DNA from: Nitrospirota bacterium
Lineage (GTDB): Bacteria; Nitrospirota; Thermodesulfovibrionia; Thermodesulfovibrionales; SM23-35
DNA: 52,511 bases
Assembly: GCA_013388455.1 (NCBI GenBank)
Contig: JACAFF010000031.1
Span: 1-52,511, forward strand
Direction of reading: 5' to 3'
Numbering within the stretch: position 1 is the first letter of the stretch; the number at the start of each line of letters is the position of its first letter. The position numbers and the translations under genes were made by a program. Positions 39,159 to 47,144 of this stretch are shown here, piece by piece. The notes beneath the pieces are model-generated. The model made no database searches. It was not told the origin of the DNA and was given only the letters and a program-made list of their open reading frames with translations.

Positions 39159-39305
39159 GTTTAGCTCCTTTTTTATTTAATCAAAGATTGAACTTATTAT
39201 ATCATGTCACTGTTTTCTAAAATAATTCTTTGAAGGCAAGTTTATTCAATATCCGCAGCAAAATAAACTACCCATTGATATCCACCTTTGCCAAAGGGAA
39301 GTAGA

Positions 39306-40463
39306 ATGGAAAAAATATCCCTTCATATGATATACATAAAATTAAAACCAGAAAGGAAAAGATTGAAAGAAAAAAGAAAAAATATTACTCAAAGGGATAG
39401 TTATAAAATACTCACTTCGTTATTTGACACTACCACAGATTTTTTATATTTACTCGATGAACGGGGGACTATTTTAAAAGTCAATAGAGCTGTATTAAAC
39501 CGAACGGGATATACAGAAGAAGAGATACTCGGTTTGAGCATCGAAAAAATTTTTAGCCCTGCATCACAGGAAATTTTTGCACAAAAATTTCCTGTGCTTC
39601 TAAAAAATAAAGTTAATAGTGAAGAAGTAGATATAGTTTGTAAAAATGGTGAGATTGTTAATGTTCTTTGCACAGGGTCAATTGTCTGTGATGATTATGG
39701 TGATATTATATACATCATTGTTTATCAGAAAGATATAACTAACCTGAAGCGCTCTGAGGAAAAACTTCGACAGATGGATAAGATAAAGCTGCTCGGACAG
39801 CTTGCTGCTGGTGTTGCCCATGAGGTCCGAAATCCATTGAACTCAATACTGGCAATTACAGAAGCCTTATTCCAGGATATCGGGGATAATCCAGAATATA
39901 AAATTTTCCTTGAGCATATAAAAAAACAGGTCGATCGTTTATCAAAATTAATGAATGATTTATTAGATCTTGCAAGACCGATATACCCATCAAATTTTCA
40001 TAAAGAGTCTCTGTATACAATTTGCAAGGCTGCAATAAATTTATTTAAAGAGGAGGGTGTTTCACAGAAACATAAAATAAATTTATTTCTGTCTCCTGAA
40101 AAGACCTTTCCAGAGGTAATGGCAGACAGTTCTCGATTACAGCAGGCTTTTCTCAATCTGTTGAAGAATTCTTGTCAGAATAGTCCTGAAGATGAAGAAA
40201 TCGAATTTATTTTGTCATTACATGATAGAAAATTTGTTAAAATATTTATTGTTGATCATGGGATCGGAATTCCAATTGAAAATCTTCAAAATGTATTCGA
40301 TCCATTTTTTACAACTCAGAAGGGCTCTTATGGTCTGGGGCTCAGTCTAACTAAACATATCATTGAATCTCATGGAGGTGAAATTTTGATATATAATAAC
40401 AATCCACCTCCGGGGTGTACTGTTGAAATTATGTTACCTATTGCTAATGAGGAGATAAAATGA
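39306..40463 (+). CDS. PAS-domain sensor histidine kinase (NtrB-like)
   Basis: 385 residues with no membrane segment, so a cytosolic sensor. PAS domain about 40-150 (TTDFLYLLDERGTILKVNR, GYTEEEILGLSIEKIF), phospho-acceptor His in GVAHEVRNPLNSI, N box NLLKNSCQNS, G boxes DHGIGIPIENL and SYGLGLSLTKHIIESHGGEI. ATG at 39306 has AAGGGAAG upstream and is preferred over a TTG 18 bp earlier. ATGA overlap with the sigma-54 regulator gene makes them a clear pair. Ligand not evident. Confidence 0.9.
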   Translation: MEKISLHMIYIKLKPERKRLKEKRKNITQRDSYKILTSLFDTTTDFLYLLDERGTILKVNRAVLNRTGYTEEEILGLSIEKIFSPASQEIFAQKFPVLLKNKVNSEEVDIVCKNGEIVNVLCTGSIVCDDYGDIIYIIVYQKDITNLKRSEEKLRQMDKIKLLGQLAAGVAHEVRNPLNSILAITEALFQDIGDNPEYKIFLEHIKKQVDRLSKLMNDLLDLARPIYPSNFHKESLYTICKAAINLFKEEGVSQKHKINLFLSPEKTFPEVMADSSRLQQAFLNLLKNSCQNSPEDEEIEFILSLHDRKFVKIFIVDHGIGIPIENLQNVFDPFFTTQKGSYGLGLSLTKHIIESHGGEILIYNNNPPPGCTVEIMLPIANEEIK

Positions 40464-41779
40464 ATCCGAAGATTCTTATTATTGATGACGAAGAAAGCAC
40501 GAGGTTCGGATTATCAAGGTATCTTTCAAAGGTTGGCTATATAGTTCAGGATGCTGATACCCTATCAAAATCAAAGGAAGCAGTTTCATCTCAACGGTTT
40601 GATGCTATTATTTTAGATCTTAATCTACCGGACGGCAATGGCCTTGACTGGATACCAGAATTAAGGGAAATCCATCCAGATGTAGCACTTGTCATTATAA
40701 CAGGATATGGTGATATCCCTGTTGCAGTTGAAGCGATGAGACGTGGTGCTGATAATTTTCTTACCAAGCCAGTAAATATGGCAGACCTTGATGTTTTTCT
40801 CAGAAAAAGTCTTGAGATAGGTAATCTAAGACGAAAACACCTAACCACTCAGCGTTTGATGAGAAAAGATCAGCCGTATTTTGGAGAAAGTTCAGTCATG
40901 AAAAAAGTTATGAATATGATATCCCTCGCATCTGAAAATGAGTCTCCAGTTGTGTTGCTTGGTGAGACAGGCTCCGGGAAAGGGTTTTTAGCAAAATGGT
41001 TACACGATCATAGTCCACGATATTCTGGCCCTTTTGTTGAATTAAATTGCTCAAACCTCAGAGGAGACTTACTTGCGAGTGAACTTTTCGGTCACGCTAA
41101 GGGATCGTTTACTTCTGCTGTTCATGACAAACAGGGATTGATCGAGGTAGCAGACGGTGGAACACTTTTTCTCGATGAGATTAGTGATATGGATTTAGGA
41201 GTTCAGGCACAATTTCTTAAAGTTGTTGAGGAAAAACAATACCGTCGTCTTGGTGAAGTTAAAATGAGGACGAGCGATTTCAGGCTTATATGTGCTACAA
41301 ATCATGATCTTGTTGAAGAGATAAAAAATGGCAGATTTAGGAAAGACTTATATTTTCGGATTAATGTCCTGCCAATAACAATACCTCCTCTAAGGGAAAG
41401 GCCAGAAGATATTCCGGGATTTGTCCGCAAGATTTTGACAAATTTAGGGCATAATGATACTGAAGTCCCAGATGAAATTATTCAGATGCTAAAAAACTAT
41501 CCATGGCCCGGCAATATCCGAGAATTAAGAAATGTTCTGGAAAGAGCAATTCTTCTTTCACAGGGTAAAACTCTTTCAACAGAACATTTTCCTGGTTTAG
41601 AACCATGCTATTTCATATCAGAAAAAAATAAAAGACTCAGTAATCTTGATAATATTGAGGAAAATCATATAAGAGCTATAGTCAAACAATTTAATGGTGA
41701 TACTCGCAAGGCATCTGAAGCATTGGGAATCTCAAGGGCAACATTATACAGGAAATTAAAAAAATTTCAGAAAAAATAA
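40460..41779 (+). CDS. NtrC-family sigma-54-dependent response regulator
   Basis: 439 residues: receiver (1-120) with phospho-acceptor Asp in AIILDLNLPDGNG, AAA+ domain (about 145-375) with Walker A GETGSGKG, Walker B GGTLFLDEI and arginine-finger region, and a Fis-type helix-turn-helix (TRKASEALGISRATLYRKLK). The sigma-54 contact loop GAFTGA reads GSFTSA, two changes from consensus; similar variants exist in functional activators. Output is presumably sigma-54 promoters, one of which lies just downstream at 41963. Confidence 0.92.
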   Translation: MNPKILIIDDEESTRFGLSRYLSKVGYIVQDADTLSKSKEAVSSQRFDAIILDLNLPDGNGLDWIPELREIHPDVALVIITGYGDIPVAVEAMRRGADNFLTKPVNMADLDVFLRKSLEIGNLRRKHLTTQRLMRKDQPYFGESSVMKKVMNMISLASENESPVVLLGETGSGKGFLAKWLHDHSPRYSGPFVELNCSNLRGDLLASELFGHAKGSFTSAVHDKQGLIEVADGGTLFLDEISDMDLGVQAQFLKVVEEKQYRRLGEVKMRTSDFRLICATNHDLVEEIKNGRFRKDLYFRINVLPITIPPLRERPEDIPGFVRKILTNLGHNDTEVPDEIIQMLKNYPWPGNIRELRNVLERAILLSQGKTLSTEHFPGLEPCYFISEKNKRLSNLDNIEENHIRAIVKQFNGDTRKASEALGISRATLYRKLKKFQKK

Positions 41780-42525: not shown

Positions 42526-42555
42526 GCGAGATTGCTTCGTTGCACTTTCAATGAC
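42526..42555. repeat. partial copy of a dispersed GAGATT...AATGAC repeat
   Basis: GCGAGATTGCTTCGTTGCAC then TTTCAATGAC resembles the widespread bacterial dispersed repeat whose fuller version lies at 51572 on the other strand (GTCATTCCGAGCGGAGCGAG). It follows repeat copy 1 within 15 bp, just as the fuller copy is tied to copy 3. Confidence 0.4.
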
Positions 42556-42640
42556 ATTTCTTTATTTCTTTTTGTTATACTTTCTAACAAAAATTTCTCT
42601 GCTTGTTATAAATGAAATATGTGTAAATTTTGTTTTGACC

Positions 42641-43183
42641 ATGAAGAATGCTTTTAAAAAAGAACTTTTCAAAATTGCAAAGGACATCAAAATTCTTATC
42701 CTTGATGTAGACGGAGTGCTTACTGATGGAAGTATTATTCTTGACAATAAAGATAATGAATTAAAGTGTTTCCATGTGCGTGATGGACATGGAATAAAAA
42801 TGCTATTGAGGCATGACATAGTTGTTGCGCTTATTACAGGTAGGTATTCAGAGGTAGTGAAAAGAAGAGCAAAGGAGCTTGGGATCAAAGACGTTTTTCA
42901 GAAATGCTATGACAAAACAAAAGCTTATAATAGGATAGTAAAAAAATATGCTATAGGCGACCATCAGATTGCATATGTTGGAGATGATATTGTAGACATA
43001 CCATTATTAAAAAAATGTGGTTTTCCTATTACTGTTTCAGATGCAGATAAACATGTTAAATCTTTTGTAAAAATGGTCACAAAGAACAGAGGTGGCAGAG
43101 GTGCTGTTAGAGAGGTATGTGATTTAATTTTGAAAGCAAAAAATCTATGGGAAAATATTATCAGTGAGTACTCTAAAATTTAA
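42641..43183 (+). CDS. kdsC: 3-deoxy-D-manno-octulosonate 8-phosphate phosphatase
   Basis: HAD phosphatase that releases Kdo for lipopolysaccharide. Asp22 and Asp24 in LDVDGVLTDGSI, Thr/Ser motif ALITGRYSEVVKRRAKELGI, VGDDIVDIPLL and the DHVTxxxGGxGAVREV-type end (KNRGGRGAVREVCDLIL). ATG at 42641 gives 180 residues, the normal size; the longer open frame back to 42551 would add a non-family hydrophobic stretch. Overlaps pgsA by 20 bp. Confidence 0.9.
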   Translation: MKNAFKKELFKIAKDIKILILDVDGVLTDGSIILDNKDNELKCFHVRDGHGIKMLLRHDIVVALITGRYSEVVKRRAKELGIKDVFQKCYDKTKAYNRIVKKYAIGDHQIAYVGDDIVDIPLLKKCGFPITVSDADKHVKSFVKMVTKNRGGRGAVREVCDLILKAKNLWENIISEYSKI

Positions 43184-43697
43184 TCTTCCGACTTTACTCA
43201 CACTTAGCAGAATAATTTTGATTCCAGTTTTTTTATTCACCGTTTACCAGCATCCTGTCTTTGGTGCATTTATATTCATTATAGCTTCAATAACAGACTT
43301 TCTTGACGGCTACCTTGCAAGACGTTCTGGTGAAGTAACAAAATTCGGCATAATTCTCGATCCGATTGCTGATAAATTCCTTGTTATATCTGCACTGATC
43401 GTCCTTGTAGAAATGGAACGACTTCAGGCATGGATAGCTATTATAATCATTGTAAGAGAATTTCTTGTTACCGGTTTGAGAGTCGTTGCACTTTCAAAGG
43501 ATATAATTATCCCGGCTGAAACTGGAGGAAAGATAAAAACCACTCTTCAAATAACTGCGATCATCTGTCTGATTCTTATGAAAAGCATTGTGAATATACA
43601 TCTCTATGATATTGGTATAATTCTTATATGGATCGCAATGGTTCTATCCATAGTATCAGGAGTTAAATATACTATATCTTTCTGGAAAAAGATCTAA
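43164..43697 (+). CDS. pgsA: CDP-diacylglycerol-glycerol-3-phosphate 3-phosphatidyltransferase
   Basis: Committed step of phosphatidylglycerol synthesis. The CDP-alcohol phosphotransferase motif is complete in DFLDGYLARRSGEVTKFG and ILDPIADK (D-x2-DG-x2-AR-x8-G-x3-D-x3-D). Four to six membrane helices in 177 residues. GTG start within the kdsC 3' end; plsY begins 3 bp after its stop. Confidence 0.92.
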   Translation: MSTLKFNLPTLLTLSRIILIPVFLFTVYQHPVFGAFIFIIASITDFLDGYLARRSGEVTKFGIILDPIADKFLVISALIVLVEMERLQAWIAIIIIVREFLVTGLRVVALSKDIIIPAETGGKIKTTLQITAIICLILMKSIVNIHLYDIGIILIWIAMVLSIVSGVKYTISFWKKI

Positions 43698-43700
43698 AAA

Positions 43701-44294
43701 ATGGATATGATTAGAATTATCATATTGTTGTTTGTATCTTTTATTATTGGTTCAATTCCTTTTGGTATAATAATAGCAAAGGCCAAAGGTGTTGATTTAA
43801 AGAAGGTTGGAAGTGGAAATATAGGTGCAACAAATGTTTTACGGTCTTTAGGAAAATGGCCAGCAATATTAACACTTATAGGAGACATCCTTAAGGGTAC
43901 TTTGGTAATCGCGATAGGCAGATATCTGGAGGTTGGAGCATTTTACGAAGGTCTAATGGGAATTTCTGCGATTCTTGGACATAATTTTTCTCTCTTCTTG
44001 AGTTTTACAGGAGGCAAAGGGGTTGCAACAAGCATTGGTGTTCTTATTTTTTATATCCCCGAGGTAGCTATCATCACAATTCTTCTCTGGTTATTCGTTG
44101 TTTTTATTTCAAGGTATTCATCTCTTGGAGCACTTTTGTCTTTTGGGCTTCTGCCAATCAATATTCTTATTTTCGATGATAAAAAGAAATTGATTATCGG
44201 TATTATGATTGCTATCCTTATATTTATAAGGCATCGAGATAATATACAGAGGCTTTTGAAAGGCACAGAAAGGAGAATTGGGCAGAGGGGATGA
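43701..44294 (+). CDS. plsY: acyl-phosphate:glycerol-3-phosphate acyltransferase
   Basis: First acylation of glycerol 3-phosphate using acyl phosphate. 197 residues, about five membrane helices; motifs KKVGSGNIGATNVLR, GHNFSLFLSFTGGKGVATS and the third loop with SLGAL. Clusters with pgsA as phospholipid synthesis genes. Its TGA overlaps the next ATG. Confidence 0.93.
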   Translation: MDMIRIIILLFVSFIIGSIPFGIIIAKAKGVDLKKVGSGNIGATNVLRSLGKWPAILTLIGDILKGTLVIAIGRYLEVGAFYEGLMGISAILGHNFSLFLSFTGGKGVATSIGVLIFYIPEVAIITILLWLFVVFISRYSSLGALLSFGLLPINILIFDDKKKLIIGIMIAILIFIRHRDNIQRLLKGTERRIGQRG

Positions 44295-45958
44295 AAAAAA
44301 TTATCTTCTTTTTTTTCATCTGCATTATTATTTTTCCCCATTTATGTTCAGGTGAAATTTCACATGAAGAACAACTCAATAAAGGGATAAAAAATTCTGA
44401 ACCATATTCATACCTCCTGATAGAAAAATCAAGGACGAATTCTACAGAAGCGAAGTCTCTCCTTGAAAAGTCATTACATTATTCTCCTGATCTTCCGGCT
44501 GTTTATTTTGAATTATCAAAAGCAAGTTTTCACTTAAATACTGATGGAATTTTCGAATCTATTGATTATATTATACAGGGCATATCTGCCTATAAGAGAA
44601 ACTTCTGGTGGATGTTCTCATTGGTTACGTCTCTGTATGTTAGTCTTATTTTTTCATTTTTAATTTCAATCCTCGTAATTATTATTATAAGACTTCCAAA
44701 AGATATATCGTTGGTATCCCATGATATAAAAGAAGAAAAATCTAAAATTTTACTACTGTTTATTCTGATATTTGCCATTTTCGGTCCTCTTTACGTATTA
44801 GGTGGTTTACTTATATTGATCAGCTTTTATATGAAAAAATGGGATCGGCTGGTTGCTTATTTTTATCTTCTTTTTCTTTTAGCAGCAATCTGGATTTTCG
44901 ATATTTTTTCAATCGGATTTATTGCGCCTGCCTCAGGTGATGTTAAGGCTGTTATCCAGGTCAACGAATCAAAAGGAAATAGTTATGCAATTTCGGTTCT
45001 GCAAAATAAGAATAATCCAATTGAACTCTTTTCATATGCTCTTGCATTGAAACGAGAAGGACATTATAGTGAGGCAATAAATATATATAATAAAGTTCTT
45101 AATCAGAAAACTGATCCCAAAACTTATAATAATCTTGCAAATTGTTATACTATTATTGGCGATTTCGAAAAGGCAAAGGAATTATATCAAAAATCAATTG
45201 AGTTGGTCCCCTTAGCAAGCACCTTATATAATCTCAGTCAGGTTTACAGAGAGACATTAAATTTTGAAAAAGGCGACAAATATTTCGTCGAGGCACAAAA
45301 ACTTGACCGTGAAGCAGTTTCACGTTTCAGAGAAATATTTAGCAGAAATCCTAATAGATTTGTTATTGATGAAGTAATTCCTATGCAGACTCTCATGGAA
45401 TATACTTTGGGCAAAGCAACTGGTTCTTTTACTATGGGTTTATCCATTGCGCCTGCTTCATTTATGCCAGTGATAGCAATCGTAATGGCAGTTATTTTTT
45501 ATATTATAACAGGCCGTTTCAGAAACAGGGCTTACAGGTGTAACAGATGTGGAAAAATTCTCTGCATAAAATGTGAAAAACATATACACTGGGGGAATAT
45601 GTGTTCTCAATGTTACAGATCAATTATAAAGCTTGATGAACTTGAATCTAAAGAAAGAATCGCAAGGCTACTTAAAGTCTATGAGTTCAGAAAGAAAAAA
45701 AGAGAGATTATTAAAATATTAACACTAATTATTCCTGGTTCAGGTCAAATTTATGCAGGGGATTTGCTGAATGGGATTTTATTCCTATGGCCATTTTTGT
45801 TCTTTCTGTTTATACCTATAACAGGTAAAATATTCAATATAGAAATGTTCAATTTTTCACACTTCTGGTTAAATATTATTTCTATCTTTCTCTTAATTTT
45901 AGTCTATTTCTTATCAAATATTATAACAAGACGGAGGCTTTCAAAAGGTTGGCTTTAG
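44291..45958 (+). CDS. membrane protein with TPR repeats, zinc finger and TM2-like tail
   Basis: 555 residues. Signal or first membrane helix (FFFFICIIIFPHLCSG), three helices between about 105 and 210, a TPR block (245-345: REGHYSEAINIYNKVLNQ, YTIIGDFEKAKELYQKSIEL), a helix near 395, a Cys-rich zinc finger about 417-455 (RCNRCGKILCIKCEKHIH, MCSQCYR) and a final helical pair with LIIPGSGQIYAGDLLNGILF like TM2 domains. Likely a scaffold at the membrane. It is coupled (ATGA to plsY; 10-bp overlap) to the DUF4388 gene, suggesting a joint role in surface or pilus-related assembly. Confidence 0.75.
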   Translation: MKKIIFFFFICIIIFPHLCSGEISHEEQLNKGIKNSEPYSYLLIEKSRTNSTEAKSLLEKSLHYSPDLPAVYFELSKASFHLNTDGIFESIDYIIQGISAYKRNFWWMFSLVTSLYVSLIFSFLISILVIIIIRLPKDISLVSHDIKEEKSKILLLFILIFAIFGPLYVLGGLLILISFYMKKWDRLVAYFYLLFLLAAIWIFDIFSIGFIAPASGDVKAVIQVNESKGNSYAISVLQNKNNPIELFSYALALKREGHYSEAINIYNKVLNQKTDPKTYNNLANCYTIIGDFEKAKELYQKSIELVPLASTLYNLSQVYRETLNFEKGDKYFVEAQKLDREAVSRFREIFSRNPNRFVIDEVIPMQTLMEYTLGKATGSFTMGLSIAPASFMPVIAIVMAVIFYIITGRFRNRAYRCNRCGKILCIKCEKHIHWGNMCSQCYRSIIKLDELESKERIARLLKVYEFRKKKREIIKILTLIIPGSGQIYAGDLLNGILFLWPFLFFLFIPITGKIFNIEMFNFSHFWLNIISIFLLILVYFLSNIITRRRLSKGWL

Positions 45959-46998
45959 AAGGATCATTAAAAGATTTTGGTCTTGCTGATATTCTTCAGC
46001 TGATATTTTTTCAGCGAAAGACGGGCGTCCTGATTATTGAAGGCAGAATGGATAGAATAAGGCTTCTATTTATTGATGGTAATATTGTAGGGGCTGAGTC
46101 CAAGAGAAGGATTGAAGCAAATCGTCTTGGAAAAGTACTCGTCAAAAAAGGGCTTCTTGATGAAAAAGATTTACAGGAAGTGCTTAACGAACAAAAAAAC
46201 ACGAATGTCAAGCTTGGTAATTTACTTATAAGAAAAGGTCTTGCCAACAAAGAGACTATAGAGGATATAATCACACAGCAAATTAAAGAGACAGTAATTC
46301 AGATATTCAGTTGGAAAGAAGGCACCTATGAATTCAATCCACAAGCAGTTCCCCTTGATAAAGACTTACCTATAAAACTTGATACACAGCATCTTCTTAT
46401 GGAGGGACTAAGAATTGTTGATGAATGGACTCTAATTGAGGGCAAGATAACACTTGAAAGTGTTTTTATTAGAAAGTCATTACCGGTTGAGGATTTGTCA
46501 GAAGAAGAAAGAGAAATTCTTGATCTGGTTGATGGAGAAAATGATGTGAGCACAATTATAGATATCACTGCTAAAGACGACTTTTCTGTTTCAAAGACAC
46601 TCGTTTCCCTGATGGAAAAAGGCATTATAGAATTAAAAGAAGCCTTGCCTTTTGTTGCTGAAGAGCTCCCTTTAAAATCTGAAAAAATAAATTTCCTTTA
46701 CCGTTTTCTTCCTGCATCTGCTATCGTAATATCAATAATTCTTGCAATAAGTTCAATTTTATTTACAACAGGAGATGTATTCAAGACATTTTCTGCATCT
46801 AAAACTATAAGCGATATCAGGTTCCGCGTTGAAGCATATAAGTTTGAATACAATTCATACCCTGATACAATTGATGTGATAAATAAAAAACCAGACCCTT
46901 GGGGAAATTCCTTTCTGTACGAGCAGAGTGGCTATTCATTTATCGTTATGAGTTTAGGTGCTGATGGTATAAAAGGAACAGCGGACGATATTTATTAA
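45949..46998 (+). CDS. DUF4388 protein with transmembrane helix and GspG-like pseudopilin tail
   Basis: 349 residues. Residues 1-165 form a PatA/DUF4388 module (LEGSLKDFGLADILQLIFFQ, GTYEFNPQAVP), found in myxobacterial and cyanobacterial signalling proteins. A hydrophobic helix lies at about 250-272 (LPASAIVISIILAISSILF), then 285-349 resembles the C-terminal half of the major pseudopilin GspG: RFRVEAYKFEYNSYPDTIDV, KPDPWGNSFLYE and SLGADGIKGTADDIY, the calcium-binding DDI end. Start is a TTG inside the upstream gene. Stop codon lies in the TTAACCC repeat at 46995. Confidence 0.75.
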   Translation: MALEGSLKDFGLADILQLIFFQRKTGVLIIEGRMDRIRLLFIDGNIVGAESKRRIEANRLGKVLVKKGLLDEKDLQEVLNEQKNTNVKLGNLLIRKGLANKETIEDIITQQIKETVIQIFSWKEGTYEFNPQAVPLDKDLPIKLDTQHLLMEGLRIVDEWTLIEGKITLESVFIRKSLPVEDLSEEEREILDLVDGENDVSTIIDITAKDDFSVSKTLVSLMEKGIIELKEALPFVAEELPLKSEKINFLYRFLPASAIVISIILAISSILFTTGDVFKTFSASKTISDIRFRVEAYKFEYNSYPDTIDVINKKPDPWGNSFLYEQSGYSFIVMSLGADGIKGTADDIY

Positions 46999-47127
46999 CC
47001 CAAAAGTGCAATTGAATAATGCAGATGTTGTGAAAAAAATATTTTTATCCATAAAACGAATAAAATAAATCCGATAATTCATCGAGTTAAAGAAATTTTT
47101 GAGCAATGTCTGCATTATTCGGGTTAA
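46995..47127. repeat. TTAACCC-ended repeat, copy 2 (133 bp)
   Basis: Left end TTAACCCAAAAGTGCAATTG, right end GAGCAATGTCTGCATTATTC followed by GGGTTAA; ends are inverted with respect to each other. Next to the left end a GAATAATGCAGATGTTGTG segment mirrors the right arm, so a long hairpin can form. Supplies the last two bases and stop of the DUF4388 gene. Confidence 0.7.
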
Positions 47128-47144
47128 TATTAATATAAATAAAA

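Follow-up and report, generated by a model that had tools for sequence, protein, structure and literature searches.

The window examined here, by which we mean the whole stretch of 52,511 nucleotides that was analyzed, carries two overlapping genes between plsY and queC. The second of these, called the fusion gene below, encodes a protein in which a DUF4388/PATAN domain with an embedded MshE-type motif is followed in turn by a winged helix, a transmembrane helix, and a GspG-like head. The locus is laid out as follows.

42551..44294, + strand: kdsC, pgsA, and plsY, the constant upstream neighbors (TIGR01670, TIGR00560, and TIGR00023 over cut-off; synteny)
44291..45958, + strand: partner gene, encoding a 555-aa TPR/zinc-ribbon membrane protein; its 3' end overlaps the start of the fusion gene by 10 nt
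45933..45937, + strand: putative ribosome-binding site of the fusion gene (GGAGG), within the partner gene, read by eye
45949..46998, + strand: fusion gene, 349 aa, TTG start, no internal stops
45949..46428, + strand: DUF4388 (PATAN) domain, residues 1-160, in two Pfam stretches
46123..46281, + strand: predicted MshE-type c-di-GMP motif, residues 59-111
46495..46641, + strand: winged-helix-like domain, about residues 183-231, from elements of the AF2 model
46699..46764, + strand: single TM helix, about residues 251-272, with no prepilin-peptidase site
46765..46995, + strand: predicted periplasmic pseudopilin-like head, residues 273-349, comprising the rest of alpha-1, two strands, and the DPWG...DGxxGTxDD loop
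47145..47909, + strand: queC (TIGR00364 over cut-off), which directly follows plsY in most genomes that do not have the pair

Two other elements of the window were also observed. A MITE-like element with imperfect inverted ends occupies 46993-47129, between the fusion gene and queC, and 60 matching pieces of it occur across the genome. Upstream of the locus, at 39288-41779, lies a gene pair for a histidine kinase and an NtrC-type sigma-54 response regulator.

The original prediction had placed a DUF4388 module, a membrane helix, and a GspG-type C-terminus in one protein, and this domain order is confirmed by Pfam and by hydrophobicity. The protein belongs to DUF4388 (PF14332), scoring 122.1 bits against a cut-off of 25, and it matches T2SSG with 29.7 bits (cut-off 21) over residues 315-346, or window positions 46891-46986. 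Against the GspG equivalog model TIGR01710 it scores 19.9 bits, below the cut-off of 88.85. We take Pfam DUF4388 and PATAN to be one and the same domain. The name PATAN and the phrase "alpha-helical insertion" are taken from the title of a 2006 paper by Makarova that PMC7690835 cites. The description of the N-terminal module as PatA-like holds as far as DUF4388 is concerned, and a fuller description would include the MshE-type c-di-GMP motif inside it. Both this motif and the winged-helix domain had been overlooked. Pfam gives a weak TrmB match over the winged-helix part, and winged-helix-like chains match model residues 165-231 with Z up to 9.5 (VIA-align). The AF2 model built on a 68-row alignment has a mean pLDDT of 80.1, with residues 232-244 below 50. 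When the whole model was compared with the PDB by Foldseek there was no hit at E <= 0.001. PADLOC reported only low-score winged-helix and TPR matches, and a plasmid search returned one record, which covers the DUF4388 part alone. In the literature searched for a DUF4388-TM-pseudopilin architecture we recognized no description of it.

This architecture is real and is widespread in the phylum. The fusion gene is intact in 68 of 101 relatives, and one further genome (G087) has a broken copy. DUF4388 is found in 68/68 orthologues and T2SSG in 66/68 at E <= 0.01. Phylogenetic spread had been proposed as a check, and a frame fusion by assembly error as grounds for rejection. What emerges is a conserved single gene: the same frame recurs in 68 of the 101 genomes, among them the single-contig assembly G024. 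An assembly or frame error that fused two genes is ruled out on this evidence, its probability being negligible. In the broken case (locus L077, contig C58), the fusion gene is disrupted and the partner gene is intact.

Among the best 80 of 402 relatives in a contig scan, 76 are Nitrospirota-type by title and the other four name no phylum, and the nearest named records in that set are Nitrospirota MAGs, several of them labeled Thermodesulfovibrionales. When 295 genomes were drawn from across the phylum, 117 of them had matches at E <= 1e-30, some of which are PATAN paralogues. Forty distant loci were fetched; 34 were syntenic, with kdsC, pgsA, plsY, or the partner nearby, and six were non-syntenic PATAN paralogues. 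The syntenic homologues carry DUF4388 in 34/34 cases and T2SSG in 17/34. Two alignments were used. Alignment A1 has 68 rows, leaves out the broken G087 gene, and includes three rows incomplete at one end (L023, where the contig stops, and L041 and L042, which are short N-terminally). Alignment A2 has 55 rows, namely the window and 54 of 55 references (L075 was dropped), with three of 58 loci removed by filters.

The fusion protein contains one hydrophobic segment, whose best 19-residue windows begin at residues 253-254. Just one further window exceeds the cut of 1.2; it starts at residue 12, scores 1.31, and is part of the folded domain. In the AF2 model, one unbroken helix runs from residue 254 to 301. 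A prepilin-peptidase site was sought ahead of the helix as the pattern [GAS]-hydrophobic-xxx-E. It is absent from the fusion protein, and the search of 68 orthologues gave one match (L026), which was judged spurious by eye from the charged residues after its Glu. The two true GspGs encoded in this genome do match the pattern, with GFTLLE and GFTLVE. The helix had been described as having no such site, and this description extends to the orthologues. A head of this kind would be expected to escape maturation and to stay out of filaments. We infer a topology in which the N-terminal part is cytoplasmic and the head periplasmic. The mean frequency of the most common residue is 0.77 in the PATAN strands, 0.57 in the tail, and 0.31-0.35 in the linker and helix. 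That the TM helix and linker are hardly conserved argues against a specific helix-helix signal.

A tail that did not fold like GspG would have spoken against the original prediction. Structure prediction instead gives the tail a GspG-like fold, with strands at 323-326 and 331-335 and block-mean pLDDT values of 87-92 over residues 281-349. The top matches of model residues 274-349 are EpsG/GspG structures, with Z 10.1, 1.6 A over 75 residues, and 27% identity (VIA-align on the AF2 model). In a profile comparison, residues 273-345 align with the genome's own pair of true GspGs at probability 97.7 and E 1.8e-12 (hhalign). Like GspG/EpsG (T2SSG), the head has a long alpha-1, a YP turn, DPWG, and a DGxxGTxDD-type loop. 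It differs in having a presumably cytoplasmic stretch of ~250 residues ahead of it, no prepilin site, and a shorter middle loop. P305, D316, W318, and G337 are invariant among orthologues, and the acidic loop positions are retained at D339 (66/68), D346 (67/68), and D347 (64/68). These three residues presumably correspond to the putative calcium ligands of the GspG-type C-terminal loop.

The head is less constant at greater distances. Regular expressions, which make the classes approximate, place the 34 syntenic distant homologues into 18 with the DG..DD loop, 13 with the alpha-1/YP core alone, and three with neither. When 14 reduced tails were aligned together and compared with 18 others, hhalign gave a probability of 98.5. 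Because the head is lost or eroded in some homologues that still have the partner, it is not strictly needed. One homologue in the same class (L190, 4428-5927) has the partner and a hydrophobic helix without a recognizable pseudopilin head.

The MshE-type motif is known, from PMC5013675, as two 24-residue motifs of the form RLGxx...LxxxLxxQ with a spacer of 5 residues. In the fusion protein, the NCBIfam model NF053729 matches residues 59-111 with 48.4 bits against a cut-off of 38. The predicted motif consists of R59-Q82, a 5-residue spacer, and K88-Q111, which gives two 24-residue repeats with the Arg/Lys, Leu, Gly, and Gln contacts all present. In the orthologue alignment, the contact positions of the first repeat are conserved at R59 (64/68), G61 (67/68), L75 (68/68), and Q82 (60/68), and those of the second at K/R88 (66/68), G90 (67/68), and Q111 (67/68), with G97 weaker at 51/68. 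According to PMC11731258, proven binders may have Lys at the first motif position; one example is PilF GSPII-B, whose motif I opens with Lys and whose binding is tighter than that of MshE. At E <= 0.001, NF053729 is found in 68/68 orthologues and in 29/34 syntenic distant homologues, some of the latter below cut-off.

The Pfam family MshEN (PF05157) is not listed for the fusion protein at E <= 1, and our claim is therefore limited to the motif rather than the whole Pfam domain. For the same reason, and because motif residues by themselves are no guarantee of binding (PMC12002112), binding of c-di-GMP by the fusion protein is offered as a prediction from sequence. The protein resembles the MshEN receptors MshE and PilF GSPII-B in its repeats, spacer, and retained contacts, and model residues ~54-114 match both MshE (5htl) and PilF GSPII-B with Z 6.1 (VIA-align). 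It differs from these receptors in having only the N-terminal subdomain motif, inside DUF4388, and no ATPase, and in that its binding is predicted. With the cyanobacterial PATAN regulators PatA, PixE, and LsiR it shares the DUF4388 domain (PMC7690835 and PMC9090330), whereas it has no detected receiver domain and would be membrane-anchored with a periplasmic head. The fusion protein is not GspG, and is best filed with the PATAN/MshE-type receptors, with the pseudopilin fold as a fixed periplasmic head.

The original prediction had pictured the tail as a fixed sensor or scaffold facing a pseudopilus. A tail with a predicted GspG-like fold and no prepilin-peptidase site is supported; a GspG pseudopilus as its counterpart is not. 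The genome does contain a classical GspG/GspE cluster and PilM on contig C22. As raw genome counts, with G087 entered as a carrier of the fusion gene and G046, in which both genes are degraded, as a non-carrier, true GspG (best E <= 1e-20) occurs in 60/69 carriers and 15/32 non-carriers, and strong PilM (best E better than 1e-40) in 66/69 and 23/32. GspG is thus neither needed nor sufficient, being missing in 9/69 carriers, and an obligate partnership with it is ruled out. The presence of a filament machine is useless as a discriminating test, given that the platform protein T2SSF is found in 101/101 relatives.

The obligate companion of the fusion protein is instead the TPR/zinc-ribbon protein encoded upstream, a neighbor that the original prediction had listed merely for an interaction test. 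Its gene is present in 70 of 101 genomes, namely all 69 carriers (68 intact, one broken) and G046, and the remaining 31 have neither gene; the survey names all 70 positive genomes and 20 of the 31 negative ones. The partner lies upstream on the same strand in 60/60 loci from the same taxonomic order, and a profile finds it upstream in 34/34 syntenic distant loci and in 0/6 non-syntenic PATAN paralogues. A usable distance between the two genes was obtained for 57 loci out of 59, and in 50 of these 57 the overlap is exactly 10 nt, a pattern suggestive of translational coupling. In genomes that do not have the pair, plsY abuts queC directly in 12 of 15 cases, and other ORFs follow plsY in the remaining three. 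Joint presence and loss, together with these plsY-queC junctions, indicate that the pair behaves as one removable unit. Its occurrence at the same place in distant classes suggests that loss is more likely than repeated gain. In G046 (locus L248, contig C205), both genes are degraded between plsY and queC, with the partner in pieces followed only by a T2SSG-matching remnant of the fusion gene.

The partner carries TPRs (Pfam) and five invariant cysteines at positions 417-441, and its model has a pLDDT of 90.7. Long helices in the model suggest several membrane passes. Read by eye, the protein probably starts with a signal sequence and has its TPRs in the periplasm and its zinc ribbon in the cytoplasm. 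Fold comparisons (Foldseek/VIA) return TPR folds only. One of these is PilF, with Z 14.7, and we read no function from this similarity because many unrelated TPR proteins score as high. Mirror-tree partial correlations between the domains of the fusion protein and the partner range from 0.03 to 0.45, which is no better than the neighbor control plsY (up to 0.41) and so gives no sign of contact.

Two paralogues in the same genome carry PATAN and TPR in one chain, which indicates that PATAN-TPR teamwork recurs. Both L005 (1483-2916, contig C42), which has a c-di-GMP motif above cut-off, and L006 (1123-2880, contig C3), which has a PilZ match near its start, link PATAN with TPR as the fusion locus does. 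They differ from it in being single chains with DnaJ, one of them also with PilZ, and in having no T2SSG match.

Our preferred explanation, which we hold to be about equally likely to prove right or wrong, is that the fusion protein is half of a two-protein transmembrane complex that answers c-di-GMP and that reuses the pseudopilin fold as a fixed periplasmic head. It would be a single-pass signal transducer of the inner membrane, with DUF4388/PATAN and the winged helix in the cytoplasm, one helix, and a head in the periplasm. This head would be a pseudopilin fold made permanent, in which alpha-1 is still long and the GspG loop still present, and the protein would pair with the TPR/zinc-ribbon membrane protein encoded by the overlapping upstream gene. 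Cytoplasmic c-di-GMP may fill the MshE-type site and cause PATAN and the winged helix to rearrange, and the continuous helix into pseudopilin alpha-1 could carry this change to a head docked on the TPR protein. Counting against this explanation, G087 keeps the partner despite its broken fusion gene. The final target is the least certain part. A type IV filament is a plausible target, and this machinery is the first candidate because the head has a pilin fold and cyanobacterial PATAN regulators bind PilB1, a pilus motor (PMC9090330, citing primary papers).

The same two observations lend some credit to a more direct scheme, in which a fixed pseudopilin acts on the type IV filament machine itself and c-di-GMP gates filament assembly. 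The head and helix would be placed next to the platform protein and the minor pilins, where they would serve as a cap or primer, and PATAN would touch a PilB/GspE-type ATPase. The platform and strong PilM counts given above fit this scheme, as do N-methyl pilins in 11/11 genomes tested, including all nine carriers without GspG. However, nearly every genome has the platform and most have PilM, which gives their presence little diagnostic value, and the distribution of GspG among carriers and non-carriers speaks against the scheme. Moreover, the GspG loop was not found in 16/34 distant homologues, and the constant neighbors among annotated ORFs are kdsC, pgsA, plsY, and the partner rather than pil or gsp genes. 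We consider direct action on the filament machine unlikely. These neighbors point to another possibility, that the pair is an envelope-homeostasis scaffold tied to lipopolysaccharide and phospholipid synthesis, with the motif a non-binding helix bundle. The pair does adjoin kdsC-pgsA-plsY across the phylum, but most genomes that have lost the pair still have those three genes in position, and the pair is therefore dispensable for them. Conservation of the Arg, Gly, and Gln positions that contact the nucleotide also goes beyond what a bundle would need, and we judge a scaffold of this kind to be slightly less probable still than direct action on the filament machine.

Most c-di-GMP receptors that act on pili or secretion systems are cytoplasmic ATPase domains or soluble adaptors, and to our knowledge little signaling has been studied in Nitrospirota. 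If the two-protein complex proposed here exists, it would be a membrane-crossing receptor equipped with an uncleavable pseudopilin of its own and invariably accompanied by one TPR protein. A bolder version, which we regard as doubtful, would make it a phylum-wide class of transmembrane second-messenger receptors in which a permanently immature pilus subunit forms the output on the periplasmic side. Together with the TPR partner, and depending on c-di-GMP, this subunit would plug or prime a type IV filament machine, and the locked pseudopilin would relay the signal across the membrane from inside to outside. The transmembrane complex, if real, would provide a defined two-gene object for learning how the signal of a second messenger gets through to the periplasmic face of the envelope, and would mean that the pseudopilin fold is able to leave filament duty.
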